Part shown: positions 24,170-28,791 of the stretch, piece after piece
Layout of the letters: every line of letters begins with the position of its first letter
Position numbering within the stretch: position 1 is the stretch's first letter
NCBI GenBank assembly: GCA_005502875.1
Contig: SCMV01000009.1
Coordinates: forward strand, 1-64,000
Source: Comamonadaceae bacterium 2PF
Lineage (GTDB): Bacteria; Pseudomonadota; Gammaproteobacteria; Burkholderiales; Burkholderiaceae_C
DNA: 64,000 nt
Direction of reading: 5' to 3'
Program-made: the position numbers and the translations under genes
The notes under the pieces: generated by a model
What the model saw: only the letters and a program-made list of their open reading frames with translations
Database searches by the model: none
Told to the model about the DNA's origin: nothing

Positions 24170-25237
24170 TTGCATTCAACCGTTTTTCACCCGAGCCGTG
24201 CACTGAGCGTTTGCTCCCTGGCCGTGCTGACCGCCGCCCTGGGCTTTGCTCCCGCAGCCCAGGCAGCCAAGCAAAAAGTCTGTGTGTTCGACATCCTCGG
24301 CACCGCTGGCGACGGCTACAACAGCGCCAAGGACTACGCCCTGGAGATGCAGAAGTTCGGTGCCGACATCGAGCTCAAGGCCTACATCGACGAGCGCGTG
24401 GCCGTGGAAGACTTCCGCACCGGCCAGTGCGACGCCGTCATGGCCACCGCCCTGCGCACCCGCCAGTTCAACGCCCTGACCGCTGCGCTCGACTCGGTTG
24501 GCGCCTCCACCATCGTGCGCAACGGCAAGCTCGACATGACCGGCAGCATCGACGTCGTGCGCAAGACCGTGCAGACCTTCAGCAGCCCCAAGGCGGCTTC
24601 GCTGATGGTCAACGGCAACTACGAAGTGGGCGGCATCGTGCCCCTGGGCGCCGCCTACGCCTTCGTCAACGACCGCGCCATCTCCAACCTCGAGGCCTCC
24701 AGCGGCAAGCGCGTGGCCGCCTTCGACCACGACAAGGCCCAGGCCCAGCTGATCTCGCGCGTCGGTGCCCGCCCGGTGGCCGCCGACGTGACCAACTTCG
24801 GCACCATGTTCAACAACGGCAACGTGGACGTGGTCATGGCGCCCTCCATCGCCTTCAAGCCGCTGGAGCTGCACAAGGGCATGGGCAACAAGGGCGCGGT
24901 TCACCGCTTCCCCATGACCATCCTGACCTACCAGATGATCTTCAAGCGCGACAAGTTCCCTGAAGGGTATGGCCAGAAGTCGCGCGAGATCTGGTTCAAC
25001 CGCTTCGACGACGTCGTCGAGATCATCAAGCGTGCCGACGCCACCATCCCGGCCAAGTTCTGGATGGACCCCTCGCCGGTGGACGCCGAGCGCTACATCA
25101 ACCTGATGCGCGACGGCCGCATCGAGATGGCCGAGAAGGGCTTCTACGACAAGAAGGGCCTGAAGATCATCAAGCGCATCCGCTGTGACGTGGCCCCGGC
25201 CAGCGCCGACTGCGGCCAGCCGACCGAAACCTGGTGA
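24170..25237 (+). CDS. Periplasmic solute-binding-like protein (DUF6091 type)
   Basis: A 355-residue exported protein. A signal peptide (VCSLAVLTAALGFAPAAQAA) is followed by KVCVFDILGTAGDGYNSAKDYALEMQKFGADIELKAYIDERVAVEDFRTGQCDAVMATALRTRQFN, a pattern of two-lobed substrate-binding proteins, which I associate with the putative solute-binding DUF6091 group. Cysteines near the N- and C-termini may pair. No transporter genes adjoin it, so partner and ligand are unknown. The TTG at 24170 is chosen because GGAGA lies 6 bases upstream and the signal peptide begins just after; the frame is open further upstream to 23462 but that part is a shadow of the SET gene. A strong terminator follows. Confidence 0.75.
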   Translation: MHSTVFHPSRALSVCSLAVLTAALGFAPAAQAAKQKVCVFDILGTAGDGYNSAKDYALEMQKFGADIELKAYIDERVAVEDFRTGQCDAVMATALRTRQFNALTAALDSVGASTIVRNGKLDMTGSIDVVRKTVQTFSSPKAASLMVNGNYEVGGIVPLGAAYAFVNDRAISNLEASSGKRVAAFDHDKAQAQLISRVGARPVAADVTNFGTMFNNGNVDVVMAPSIAFKPLELHKGMGNKGAVHRFPMTILTYQMIFKRDKFPEGYGQKSREIWFNRFDDVVEIIKRADATIPAKFWMDPSPVDAERYINLMRDGRIEMAEKGFYDKKGLKIIKRIRCDVAPASADCGQPTETW

Positions 25238-25284
25238 GCGCAGCCCGGGCGCCTGGTGCCCGGGACGCACAGCCGAGCGCCCAA

Positions 25285-25327
25285 AGAAAAAGCCTCCCGA
25301 GTCCTGAGACTCGCGGAGGCTTTTTTT
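25285..25327. terminator. Rho-independent bidirectional terminator
   Basis: An A-run, then AAGCCTCC-CGAGTC, loop CTGA, GACTCG-CGGAGGCTT and seven T. The stem is about 14 bp with one bulged base and works in both directions. It closes the solute-binding-like gene from the left and the small minus-strand gene from the right. Confidence 0.9.
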
Positions 25328-25370
25328 GTGGCCGAAGGGAGCGCGGCAGGCGCTCACCCAGGCAAGGCGA

Positions 25371-25583
25371 TCAGCCCAGGGTCTTGAGCTCGGCGTCAAC
25401 CTTTTGCAGCAGGTCTTCGGTGATCAGGCCACCGGAGAACTTGGCGACCATCGACAGGGCGAAACCCTTGCCCATGCCGATTTGCGGGTGGGTGGAGATG
25501 CCGGGCAGGTGCTTTTCCAGGATGGCCTTGGTGGTTTCGTTGTCCAGCAGGTCGCCGAGTTTGGATTCGATCGAGAAGCTCAT
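25371..25583 (-). CDS. 70-residue conserved-looking small protein
   Basis: A small soluble protein with a helical, amphipathic sequence: SIESKLGDLLDNETTKAILEK followed by HLPGISTHPQIGMGKGFALSMVAKFSGGLITEDLLQKVDAELKTL. The regular pattern with conserved-looking Pro-Gly and Gly turns and a terminal acidic helix resembles a short domain I recall at the ends of some hydrolases, but I cannot name it. The gene stands alone, with its stop close to a bidirectional terminator and its start 1 kb from priA. The ATG at 25583 is preferred to a GTG at 25595. Possibly abundant, given its own transcription unit and strong terminator. Confidence 0.72.
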   Translation of the reverse strand: MSFSIESKLGDLLDNETTKAILEKHLPGISTHPQIGMGKGFALSMVAKFSGGLITEDLLQKVDAELKTLG

Positions 25584-26020
25584 CTTTTGTCTCACTAGGG
25601 TGTTGGGTTGTGGATGGTGCTCCCGGGCACGTCAGCAGGCGACCCGCGCGGTGACACCCACAAAGCATAACCCGAGAGTCAGCCCGTTGACGCGCATGAC
25701 CCAGCGCCGAGTCACCCCTTGCTCGCAGGGGCTGAGGTGCCCGCAGCAGACCGCGGAGCAGGTCGGTGCGTGGTGGGCCCGTGAATTCACCATTTCGAAT
25801 CACCAGCGAGCGAAAACCGTGCTTGGGCCCCGGCACTTATCCCCAAAACGCAGCATGCCGCTTTGCTGAATTTCCCCATCGCGCCAAATGCCCCACATGC
25901 CCTGTGTCAATGTGGCAAGTGGTTGATTTGATTGATGAAAATCTCTTTGACGCAAGTCAGCGACAACCTGGGGAAAGCCTGGGGTGTGCGAAGCGGCCGC
26001 CGGTTCTCCCTGTTTTTGCT

Positions 26021-26037
26021 CACAAAGTTATCCACAG
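26021..26037 (+). repeat. 17-bp repeat with exact DnaA box, copy 1
   Basis: CACAAAGTTATCCACAG, containing TTATCCACA at 26028-26036. It is identical to the copy at 26474-26490. Immediately after it, GTGGATT gives a partial inverted box. Confidence 0.85.
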
Positions 26038-26473
26038 CTTGTGGATTCGGCTGCAAGGCCCATGAATCAAGCACTTACAGCCCACTCTTGGCGAGTCGCA
26101 TCGGCTTTGCCCCCTAAGTGCGGCGGGCCCAGGTCGCGAGCCTGAGCGTCGCAACTTGTTCCATGACCGGTGATGGCCATCGGGATTTCGGATGGCGCGC
26201 CTGCTGTGACAAAGTTCACAGAGGGAGACAGAGCGTGTCAGATTCTGAGCAACTAGGGCAAACCCTTGATTTTGATCGCTCGCGACTCACTTATCCCCAT
26301 CGGGCGCTCAGCGGGTGCACCGCACTGGGGCGGGCCCTCAAAGCCGGACAAAGCGCCGCTGAGCCGCGCTAAGTTGTTGATTCATTTAGGCTGCTCGGCG
26401 ATGCCTCATTCTGAGGCAAACTGACCCAAACGCCGGTGTGACAAGCACTTAGCGCGCGTCTGCAAAGCTTTCC

Positions 26474-26490
26474 CACAAAGTTATCCACAG
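26474..26490 (+). repeat. 17-bp repeat with exact DnaA box, copy 2
   Basis: CACAAAGTTATCCACAG again, with TTATCCACA at 26481-26489. A facing box with one mismatch on the minus strand at 26495-26503 gives a closely spaced inverted pair, a common arrangement for cooperative DnaA binding. Confidence 0.85.
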
Positions 26491-26583
26491 TCCCCGTGGA
26501 TAAGGGTGTCCCCAAGGTAAATCAAGCACTTGGCGAGGCGTCTTCACGCCTCTGTCAGAATCTGCCTGACACACCTTCCCGCC

Positions 26584-28791
26584 ATGCACGCACCTGTTCC
26601 GACCGCGCCCGAGGCGCCCTGCCGCGTCGGGGTCGTGGTCGAGGCGCCCCAGCACAGCGGCCTGTGGGGTGCGCTCGACTACCTGCACCCCCAAGCCCTG
26701 CCCGCCGGCGCCCTCGTGAGGGTGCCCCTGGGTCGGCGCGTGGTCACCGGGGTGGTCTGGGACCGGGCAGAAAGCGCGGACGAAGGCGCCGCGCAGCTGA
26801 CCCCCGAGTCGCTCAAGGCCGTGATCGAGACCTTCGACGCCTTGCCGCCCCTGCCCCCGTCGTGGCGCAAGCTGGTGGCCTTTGCCGCCAGCTACTACCA
26901 ACGCAGCCTGGGCGAGATGGCGCTGATGGTGCTGCCGCCCGAGTTGCGCCAGCTCGACCAGGTGCAACTGCAGCGCAGGCTCAAGCGCCTGGACAAGGCT
27001 GTCGCAGCCGAGTTGGCCGAGGCGATCAAGTCAGCGCGACACGCCGGCGTTGAGGGCGTGGCCTCGGTGGTGAGCCCAAGCGCCGAGCCCTGTGAAGGGG
27101 CAGGGCAAACCGCCGCCGCCGACCCCAGCGCCCTGCCCGAACTCAGCGCCCAGCAGGCCGAGGCCCTGGCCCGCCTGGCCGCATCGCCCCCCCAGCCCAG
27201 CCTGCTGTGGGGCAGCACCGGCAGCGGCAAGACCGAGGTCTACCTGCGCGAGGCGCAACGCGTGCTCGACGCCGGCCGCCAGGTGCTGATGATGGTGCCC
27301 GAGATCAACCTCACGCCCCAGCTCGAGGCCCGCGTGGCGGCGCGCTTCGCGGGCCGGCGCATCGTCTCGCTGCACAGCGGCCTGACGCCGGCCCAGCGCC
27401 TGCGCAACTGGCTGATGGCGCTGCGCGGCCAGGCCGACGTGGTGCTGGGCACGCGCCTGTCGGTGTTCACGCCGCTGCCCCGCCCCGGTCTCATCGTGGT
27501 CGACGAAGAGCACGACCCCAGCTACAAGCAGCAGGACGGCGCCCGCTACTCCGCGCGCGACCTGGCCGTCTACCGAGGGCGGCTCGAAGGCGTGCCGGTG
27601 CTGCTGGGCTCGGCCACGCCCAGCCTTGAAACGTGGTTCAACGCCCTGCCCACCAGCGAAGGCGGCACGGGCCGCTACCTGCGCCTGGCCATGCCCGAGC
27701 GCATCGGGGGCGGGGCCATGCCCAAGGTGCGATTGCTGGACATGTCGCGCGCGCCCAAACCCGGTCGCGGCGAATCCGCACCGCCGCTGTCGGCACCCCT
27801 GCTGGCGGCCATCACCGAACGTGTCGAGCGCGGCGAGCAAAGCCTGGTGCTGCTCAACCGGCGCGGCTACGCCCCGGTGCTGCAATGCGGTGACTGCGGC
27901 TGGCAAAGCGGCTGCCCGCACTGCAGCGCCTGGCGCGTGTTCCACAAGGTCGACCGCACGCTGCGCTGCCACCACTGCGGCTTCACCGAACGCGTGCCGC
28001 GCGCCTGCCCCGACTGCGGCAACCAGGACATCCAGCCCGTGGGCCGGGGCACCGAGCGCCTGGAAGAGCAACTCGCCGAGGCCCTGCCCGGCGCGCGCGT
28101 GGGCCGCATCGACGCCGACGTGACCAAGCACAAGGGCGCGCTCGAAGAGCAACTCGCCAGCGTGCACGCGGGCGACGTGGACGTGCTGGTGGGCACGCAG
28201 ATGGTGGCCAAGGGGCACGACTTCCGGCGCATCACGCTGGTGGCGGCGGTCAACCCCGATGCGGCGCTGTTCGCCAGCGACTTCCGCGCCGCCGAGCGCC
28301 AGTTCGCGCTGCTGCTGCAGGCCGCAGGCCGGGCCGGGCGCGACGCCGACGTGGCCGGCCACAGCGAGATGTGGGTGCAGACCTGGCACCCGCTGCACCC
28401 GCTCTACCAGGCGCTGCGCGACTACGACTACGAGGCCTTTGCCACGCGGCAGCTGCAAGAGCGCCAGTCGGCGTGCCTGCCGCCCTACGCCAGCCTGGCC
28501 CTGCTGCGCGCCGAAGCCAAGACGCAGGACGCGGCCGGCGACTTCCTGCGCGCTGCGGCCGAGGCGGTGGCGCACCTGGCGAGTGGGGTGACCCTCTACC
28601 CGCCCGTGCCCACGCCCGTGCAGCGCGTGGCCGACATCGAACGCGCGCAGATGATGATGGAGTCGCCGCAGCGGCCGGCGCTGCAGCGTTTGCTCACCGA
28701 GGCGCAACCCATCTGGCTGGCCCTGGCGCAACAACACCGCCGCAGCGGACTGGTCCGCTGGGCGGTGGACGTGGACCCGCTGTCGATCTGA
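26584..28791 (+). CDS. priA: Primosomal protein N' (replication restart helicase PriA)
   Basis: A 735-residue PriA. The N-terminal fork-binding domain (RVGVVVEAPQHSGLWGALDYL, VRVPLGRRVVTGVVW) is followed by a superfamily 2 helicase core with Walker A GSTGSGKTE (about 210), DEEH motif VVDEEHDPSYKQQ and GSATPS. Eight cysteines (CGDCGWQSGCPHC, CHHCGF, CPDCG) form the paired zinc sites. QMVAKGHDF and the QAAGRAGR motif VI end the helicase. PriA reloads the replisome at stalled forks. The start at 26584 is the first ATG after a CAGAAT -10-like box at 26556-26561; an earlier in-frame start adds residues with no family similarity. Its position beside the DnaA-box region is notable. Confidence 0.95.
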   Translation: MHAPVPTAPEAPCRVGVVVEAPQHSGLWGALDYLHPQALPAGALVRVPLGRRVVTGVVWDRAESADEGAAQLTPESLKAVIETFDALPPLPPSWRKLVAFAASYYQRSLGEMALMVLPPELRQLDQVQLQRRLKRLDKAVAAELAEAIKSARHAGVEGVASVVSPSAEPCEGAGQTAAADPSALPELSAQQAEALARLAASPPQPSLLWGSTGSGKTEVYLREAQRVLDAGRQVLMMVPEINLTPQLEARVAARFAGRRIVSLHSGLTPAQRLRNWLMALRGQADVVLGTRLSVFTPLPRPGLIVVDEEHDPSYKQQDGARYSARDLAVYRGRLEGVPVLLGSATPSLETWFNALPTSEGGTGRYLRLAMPERIGGGAMPKVRLLDMSRAPKPGRGESAPPLSAPLLAAITERVERGEQSLVLLNRRGYAPVLQCGDCGWQSGCPHCSAWRVFHKVDRTLRCHHCGFTERVPRACPDCGNQDIQPVGRGTERLEEQLAEALPGARVGRIDADVTKHKGALEEQLASVHAGDVDVLVGTQMVAKGHDFRRITLVAAVNPDAALFASDFRAAERQFALLLQAAGRAGRDADVAGHSEMWVQTWHPLHPLYQALRDYDYEAFATRQLQERQSACLPPYASLALLRAEAKTQDAAGDFLRAAAEAVAHLASGVTLYPPVPTPVQRVADIERAQMMMESPQRPALQRLLTEAQPIWLALAQQHRRSGLVRWAVDVDPLSI

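Follow-up and report, generated by a model that had tools for sequence, protein, structure and literature searches.

The 994-bp gap that precedes priA in the genome studied here (positions 25590-26583 of the window, by which we mean the whole analysed stretch of 64,000 nucleotides) probably contains a tandem pair of elements of the DARS (DnaA-reactivating sequence) type, as judged from its sequence and by analogy with Escherichia coli. Most of what is known about how DNA sites control the ATP/ADP state of DnaA comes from E. coli. Following that analogy, the element is best read as a priA-linked, IHF-flanked DARS, duplicated in this genome, that would promote the release of ADP from DnaA. The reading draws on the sequence of the element, its geometry and conservation, its linkage to priA, its similarity to DARS2 and its separation from the replication origin in relatives; from these we infer that DnaA and IHF would bind to it, that ADP would be released, that the element would have a role in the cell cycle and that both copies might work.

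The gap is bounded by priA, which encodes the primosomal helicase PriA (735 aa), and by a divergent 70-codon open reading frame (ORF) for which Pfam returned no match. Its GC content is 0.59, compared with 0.679 for the whole window, and falls to 0.34 in an AT-rich run at 25921-25955. Two exact DnaA boxes (TTATCCACA) lie in the gap within 462 bp, against 0.004 expected from base composition per 994-bp gap and 0.085 per 64 kb; nine such boxes are present genome-wide, including these two. When one mismatch is allowed, the window contains seven box matches, compared with a shuffle mean of 2.5, and seven were reached in 2 of 100 shuffles. All boxes are genuine and at the coordinates given for them, and their number far exceeds chance. 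An earlier, sequence-only reading of this stretch had pointed out both exact boxes, the identical 17-mer CACAAAGTTATCCACAG that encloses each of them (26021-26037 and 26474-26490), a one-mismatch box on the minus strand facing the second, two TTATCCCCA near-boxes, the AT-richness of the gap, the divergence of the flanking genes and the rarity of strict boxes by chance, and our analysis bears out all of these observations.

Beyond that reading, the gap displays a repeat of a whole unit; each unit has perfect IHF-consensus sites, and its strong box is preceded, at a distance of exactly 12 bp, by a weaker one. In a repeat analysis of the gap, the boxes, along with CACTTATCCCCA and AATCAAGCACTT, recur at an offset of 453-456 bp, and the two units can be aligned with 169 identities over 217 aligned positions, with many gaps, at a score of 179.5 (shuffle mean 102.7, sd 8.9), indicating that the gap is a diverged tandem pair of one module. 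The order of elements in the module is a distal DnaA box, an IHF site, boxes III (-12), II (0) and I (+14, inverted) and a second IHF site. The features, with offsets counted from box II, are as follows:

25371-25583, minus strand: 70-codon ORF, divergent from priA, bounding the gap on one side
25837-25845, plus strand: copy 1, distal box A (TTATCCCCA), one of the two near-boxes
25913-26077, plus strand: predicted copy 1 as a whole, match to model R1 (see below) of 47.3 bits
25916-25928, minus strand: copy 1, predicted IHF site before the core, at -112, no consensus mismatches
26016-26024, plus strand: copy 1, box III (TTGCTCACA), at -12, from the box scan
26028-26036, plus strand: copy 1, box II (TTATCCACA), exact box
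26040-26048, minus strand: copy 1, inverted box I-like sequence (GAATCCACA), displaced to +12, no box at +14
26065-26077, plus strand: copy 1, predicted IHF site after the core, at +37, no consensus mismatches
26259-26271, minus strand: additional IHF consensus match between the copies, no mismatches
26291-26299, plus strand: copy 2, distal box A (TTATCCCCA), the second near-box
26367-26533, plus strand: predicted copy 2 as a whole, match to model R1 of 83.8 bits, the window being one of the 42 training rows of R1
26370-26382, minus strand: copy 2, predicted IHF site before the core, at -111, no consensus mismatches
26469-26477, plus strand: copy 2, box III (TTTCCCACA), at -12, from the box scan
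26481-26489, plus strand: copy 2, box II (TTATCCACA), exact box
26495-26503, minus strand: copy 2, inverted box I (TTATCCACG), at +14, one mismatch
26520-26532, plus strand: copy 2, predicted IHF site after the core, at +39, no consensus mismatches
26584-28791, plus strand: priA (primosomal helicase PriA, 735 aa), bounding the gap on the other side

Copy 1, with box I displaced, is the weaker of the two. A non-coding RNA in the gap was considered and rejected after an Rfam scan of positions 25200-27000, in which nothing rose above the gathering score of any family.

The arrangement of the boxes was compared with the stretches of E. coli MG1655 that contain DARS1, DARS2, datA and oriC. The E. 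coli DARS cores scan as box I (plus) at 0, box II (minus) at +14 and box III (minus) at +26; when read from the other strand, they become III (-12), II (0) and I (+14, inverted), which is the arrangement of copy 2 in the window, where III and II share one orientation and I opposes them. Copy 1 has boxes III and II in place and the inverted box at +12 rather than +14. The opposition of boxes I and II is presented as the hallmark of DARS in passages of three papers (PMC5742627; PMC10380432; PMC8682772). The summed mismatches in boxes III and I amount to two in DARS1, in DARS2 and in copy 2, compared with at best six in datA and nine in oriC. Of the 1881 near-boxes counted across 1.89 Mb of DNA sampled from relatives, a single one scores four or less, and it belongs to the priA-linked module of one of these relatives (genome G004).

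The core of DARS2, located in the rppH-mutH gap, is the same as that of copy 2 in box order, orientation and spacing, and DARS2, like the window, carries extra DnaA boxes beyond the core. Relative to its box II, the IHF-consensus sites of DARS2 occupy positions -99 and -83, on the side of box III; this pair presumably corresponds to IBS1-2, described in a passage of PMC4245941 as two IHF sites 3 bp apart, given the matching separation. An IHF consensus of the DARS2 type is found on the same side in both window copies (-111 and -112), and the outer E. coli site at -99 shares the side and orientation of the -111 site, which is about one turn further out. The window differs from DARS2 in the second IHF site after the core, in the direct distal box A at -190 and in its place before priA. 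DARS2 needs Fis, as stated in part of the same source (PMC4245941). A small ORF (a 119-aa open frame) with a Fis-type helix-turn-helix is present in the window's genome. DARS1, between bioD and uvrB, has the same three-box geometry and a gene address that differs from that of the window module, and no IHF consensus was found from -130 to +70 of its box II. The IHF site at about +40 lacks an equivalent next to either DARS of E. coli. The DARS-like sequences of Vibrio cholerae, likened here by description, are at uvrB and mutH rather than priA in the part of the source that covers them (PMC6090056, which cites Fujimitsu 2009).

The E. coli sites were also scored with R1, a sequence-only model derived from 42 betaproteobacterial rows, without E. 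coli. R1 matched DARS2 twice (23.7 and 21.2 bits) in alignments that take in the IHF site as well as the core; DARS2 itself thus looks like a tandem pair and may, on the strength of this match, be an old one; the 23.7-bit copy, in the outer half of DARS2 (MG1655, L223 2941-3084), has an IHF-like site at -109. The scores of DARS1 (17.3 bits), datA (16.1 bits) and oriC (13.8 bits), of which the latter two extend over shorter stretches, barely part DARS1 from datA, and it is the +14 geometry that separates them. This geometry bears on an alternative in which the module resembles datA or is a simple titration site, binding DnaA and reducing the level of free ATP-DnaA. Like the window, datA combines DnaA boxes with an IHF site in a non-coding gap, has an IHF site between DnaA boxes and contains one -12/0 box pair. 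However, datA is without the inverted box I at +14 (four mismatches there, compared with one in copy 2), and its IHF site and second strong box are on the opposite flank of the -12/0 pair. The datA-type layout, in which boxes 2 and 3 flank an IHF site with no facing box I, is not that of the window, where the box geometry matches DARS, and we regard titration as quite improbable.

Conservation of the module was assessed at 80 PriA loci obtained by a scan of genome contigs, the nearest being those of a Burkholderiales bacterium and of Aquabacterium. Up to 1.5 kb of upstream sequence was scanned at 75 of these loci (L044, L046, L060, L062 and L083 were left out), and an exact TTATCCACA was present upstream of priA in 70, usually accompanied by a TTATGCACA or TTATCCCCA box approximately 187-190 bp further up. 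The sequence-only reading had proposed a comparison of the region in relatives and would have been weakened had the boxes turned out to be unconserved; instead, they are strongly conserved upstream of priA, which supports, at the level of sequence, a conserved DnaA-box locus.

By box pair, one unit was collected from each of 67 of the 80 loci and, together with window copy 2, these make up 68 units. In one case (L032, a Burkholderiales MAG), the collected unit is downstream of priA and another unit is upstream. A module copy of 85.7 bits is located there just downstream of priA (L032 7342-7507), so that the gene has a copy on either side. Of the 68 units, 60 have a direct box at -12 that deviates from TTATNCACA by no more than two mismatches, compared with 15 of 1880 background sites; likewise, 60 have a minus-strand IHF consensus, one mismatch being allowed, between -118 and -95. 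Within 71 bp after box II, 48 units carry an IHF consensus with at most one mismatch and 30 an exact one, compared with 1.4% and 0.5%, respectively, of random windows drawn from the same loci. The least conserved part is the inverted box, found at +14 with at most three mismatches in 36 of the 68 units and, if positions from +11 to +16 are allowed, in 43 (background, 371 of 1880). The spacing between box A and box II is 175-179 in eight units, 185-191 in 58 and 199 in two; these steps of approximately one helical turn are descriptive only, because the loci are related.

R1 was then applied to whole genomes at a threshold of E ≤0.01 per genome, yielding matches in 249 of 250 Burkholderiales genomes, two or more in most of them, and in 169 of a class-wide sample of 185 genomes. 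A copy is located upstream of priA, on the same strand, at 77 of the 80 PriA loci; since 41 of these loci were used in training, the figure independent of training is 36 of 39. One of the three misses (L083) is without upstream sequence. Fifteen loci, as counted from the table, have at least two good copies before priA, so the doubling occurs in several genera, and two partial copies are present at L085. Considering the class genomes with both R1 and PriA among the matches listed, the module precedes PriA on the same strand in 51 of 90, the nearest copy being 531-884 bp before the PriA profile match; the remaining 39 have module copies elsewhere, again among the matches listed. Among the module loci that were fetched, PriA is present in 24 of the 30 at order level and in 8 of the 18 at class level, and no R1 match up to E = 1 was detected in 10 kb around priA of E. 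coli. In a null run with an HMM of the same alignment over the 1.89 Mb, the only match with E <0.01 was the G004 module, and the reversed 1.89 Mb gave no match up to E = 1.

In the window's own genome, R1 has four matches: the two copies at priA, a copy at xseA and, at C1:57964, a weak match (E 0.007). The xseA copy (62 bits; C22:59089-59224, L006 1484-1619, minus strand) is between an ExbB-like gene and xseA, and XseA also adjoins the module in 2 of the 30 order-level loci (L242 and L249). By analogy, the two strong addresses, priA and xseA, recall the two DARS of E. coli. Two further kinds of sites were observed in this genome. A perfect palindrome, TTATCCACAGAAACTGTGGATAA (L002 1501-1523, G000:C1:58035-58057), combines boxes II and I, spaced as in DARS, with a poor box III, and a similar pair with one change is found at G000:C55:95222-95244. 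Exact DnaA boxes at L004 1501-1509 and L007 1501-1509 (G000:C18 and C33) are immediately upstream of ORFs that, by eye, are dnaB-like and mreB-like. The 48 other module loci (L227-L274) were searched with E. coli sequences or fragments of MutH, RppH, PtsP, UvrB and BioD, with no match at E 1e-6; a UvrB-like ORF, seen by eye in L270, was beyond the reach of the N-terminal UvrB fragment used as the query. We also considered the IHF site at about +40 as a mark of priA-linked copies only and rejected this, since several non-priA copies in the class list, judged by eye, reach model position 168.

The prevalence of the module upstream of priA, on the same strand, is what would be expected if it were a control region of this gene, with DnaA and IHF tying priA transcription to the replication cycle and no part in nucleotide exchange. 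However, the module also occurs at other addresses, namely xseA in this genome and those of the copies listed for the 39 class genomes mentioned above, and a sigma-70-type consensus scan of positions 25250-26700 detected no promoter-like site, which is weak evidence. A scan for terminators gave one match, inside the small ORF. Furthermore, the distance from box II to PriA varies widely (sd 72 bp over 65 loci), whereas that from box A to box II is nearly constant (sd 4.5 bp over 68 units), albeit partly by construction, because only box pairs spaced 165-205 bp apart were accepted as units. This combination of a variable distance to PriA with a fixed internal spacing fits a self-contained element better than part of a promoter, and we consider a pure priA control region unlikely. 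A dual role, as a DARS and in priA control, is possible.

The sequence-only reading had put forward the stretch before priA as a candidate replication origin, and the cluster of boxes, the IHF sites and the AT-rich run in a non-coding gap would suit an origin, or a second one, as would the proximity of priA to dnaA in several relatives (within about 25-120 kb). In the window's genome, dnaA is on another contig than the window, and as the assembly comprises 95 contigs, its own skew is unreadable and relatives were sampled instead. In G004, the skew changes sign at approximately 1.695-1.700 Mb, 1.55 Mb away from the priA-linked module at 0.143 Mb. At the switch, four exact boxes occur in 131 bp, alongside a gene for a YlqF-like GTPase (named by eye). 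The segment G004:C1:1695210-1695399 (L182 5210-5399) is likely the true origin of G004; with dnaA at 1.28 Mb, 0.41 Mb from the skew switch, the origin appears to have parted from dnaA in this lineage. In G178, nine of nine samples between 4.50 and 5.35 Mb have a negative strand bias at fourfold sites. The bias nearly vanishes at 5.43 Mb and at 5 kb, and the samples at 0.1 Mb and 0.3 Mb are positive. The switch is near dnaA, approximately 0.5 Mb from the module, which is inside the negative part (4.98 Mb), where the raw skew is noisy. G043 agrees weakly, with a change between 2.5 Mb and 5 kb and non-negative values at both neighbours of the module (116 kb), and in G007, G038 and G049 the skew is too flat to place a switch.

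In these relatives, the GC-skew minimum is away from the module, clearly so in G004, also in G178 and weakly in G043, and the occurrence of the module two or more times in most Burkholderiales genomes is also at odds with an origin. An origin in the priA gap was rejected on the basis of the skew sampling in relatives; the stretch is probably not a replication origin, and we regard the notion of a chromosomal origin, main or second, as extremely improbable. The sequence-only reading would have been refuted by a distant skew minimum at dnaA combined with unconserved boxes: in relatives the minimum is indeed distant but, in G004, not at dnaA, and the boxes are conserved.

With regard to the literature, passages of one review mention sequences like DARS1 and DARS2 in many proteobacteria (PMC10380432), and passages of another describe the DARS2 arrangement as common to beta- or gammaproteobacteria proximal to E. 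coli (PMC5742627), whereas the primary paper, in the part concerned, has the DARS2 core conserved specifically in E. coli-related gammaproteobacteria (PMC4245941). Our literature search, which covered few subscription papers (the homolog paper, Fujimitsu 2009, being outside it), mentioned neither DnaA boxes nor a DARS before priA. DARS in E. coli and DARS-like sites in V. cholerae are already known, and a priA-linked DARS, if the analogy holds, would add a new form of them, as far as the papers searched show.

If the priA-linked module functions as a DARS, its mechanism might be the following. In copy 2, with boxes III and II head-to-tail 12 bp apart and box I facing box II, ADP-DnaA bound to boxes I and II would meet through the AAA+ domains and release ADP, and the freed DnaA could then bind ATP and support the next initiation at the true oriC, located elsewhere. 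The IHF site at about -110 would serve to bend a regulatory arm, as in DARS2, and thereby to set the timing; the second IHF site, 37-40 bp after box II, may also bend the DNA and help the timing, whereas the distal box A, with its spacing stepped near one helical turn, might join the folded complex. Together with the phasing of box A, the second IHF site would suggest a folded complex spanning approximately 240 bp. Because the module stands ahead of priA, it may also have a part in the expression of that gene.

Should the module work as a DARS, non-coding sites for the recharging of DnaA would span the whole class, betaproteobacteria included, and their address would often be at priA. R1 would then provide a sequence model for finding such sites, the module would explain conserved DnaA boxes that can be mistaken for an origin, as happened in the sequence-only reading, and a coupling between the recharging of DnaA and the supply of PriA could be tested directly. 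More tentatively, and with considerable doubt, a priA-linked, IHF-flanked DARS might be ancestral and widespread in Gammaproteobacteria (including betaproteobacteria), absent from priA of E. coli, and might couple the recharging of DnaA to the supply of the restart helicase PriA. If true, the initiation potential and the capacity for fork restart would rise together, and tandem doubling, as in the Aquabacterium-like genome of the window, would tune the dose.
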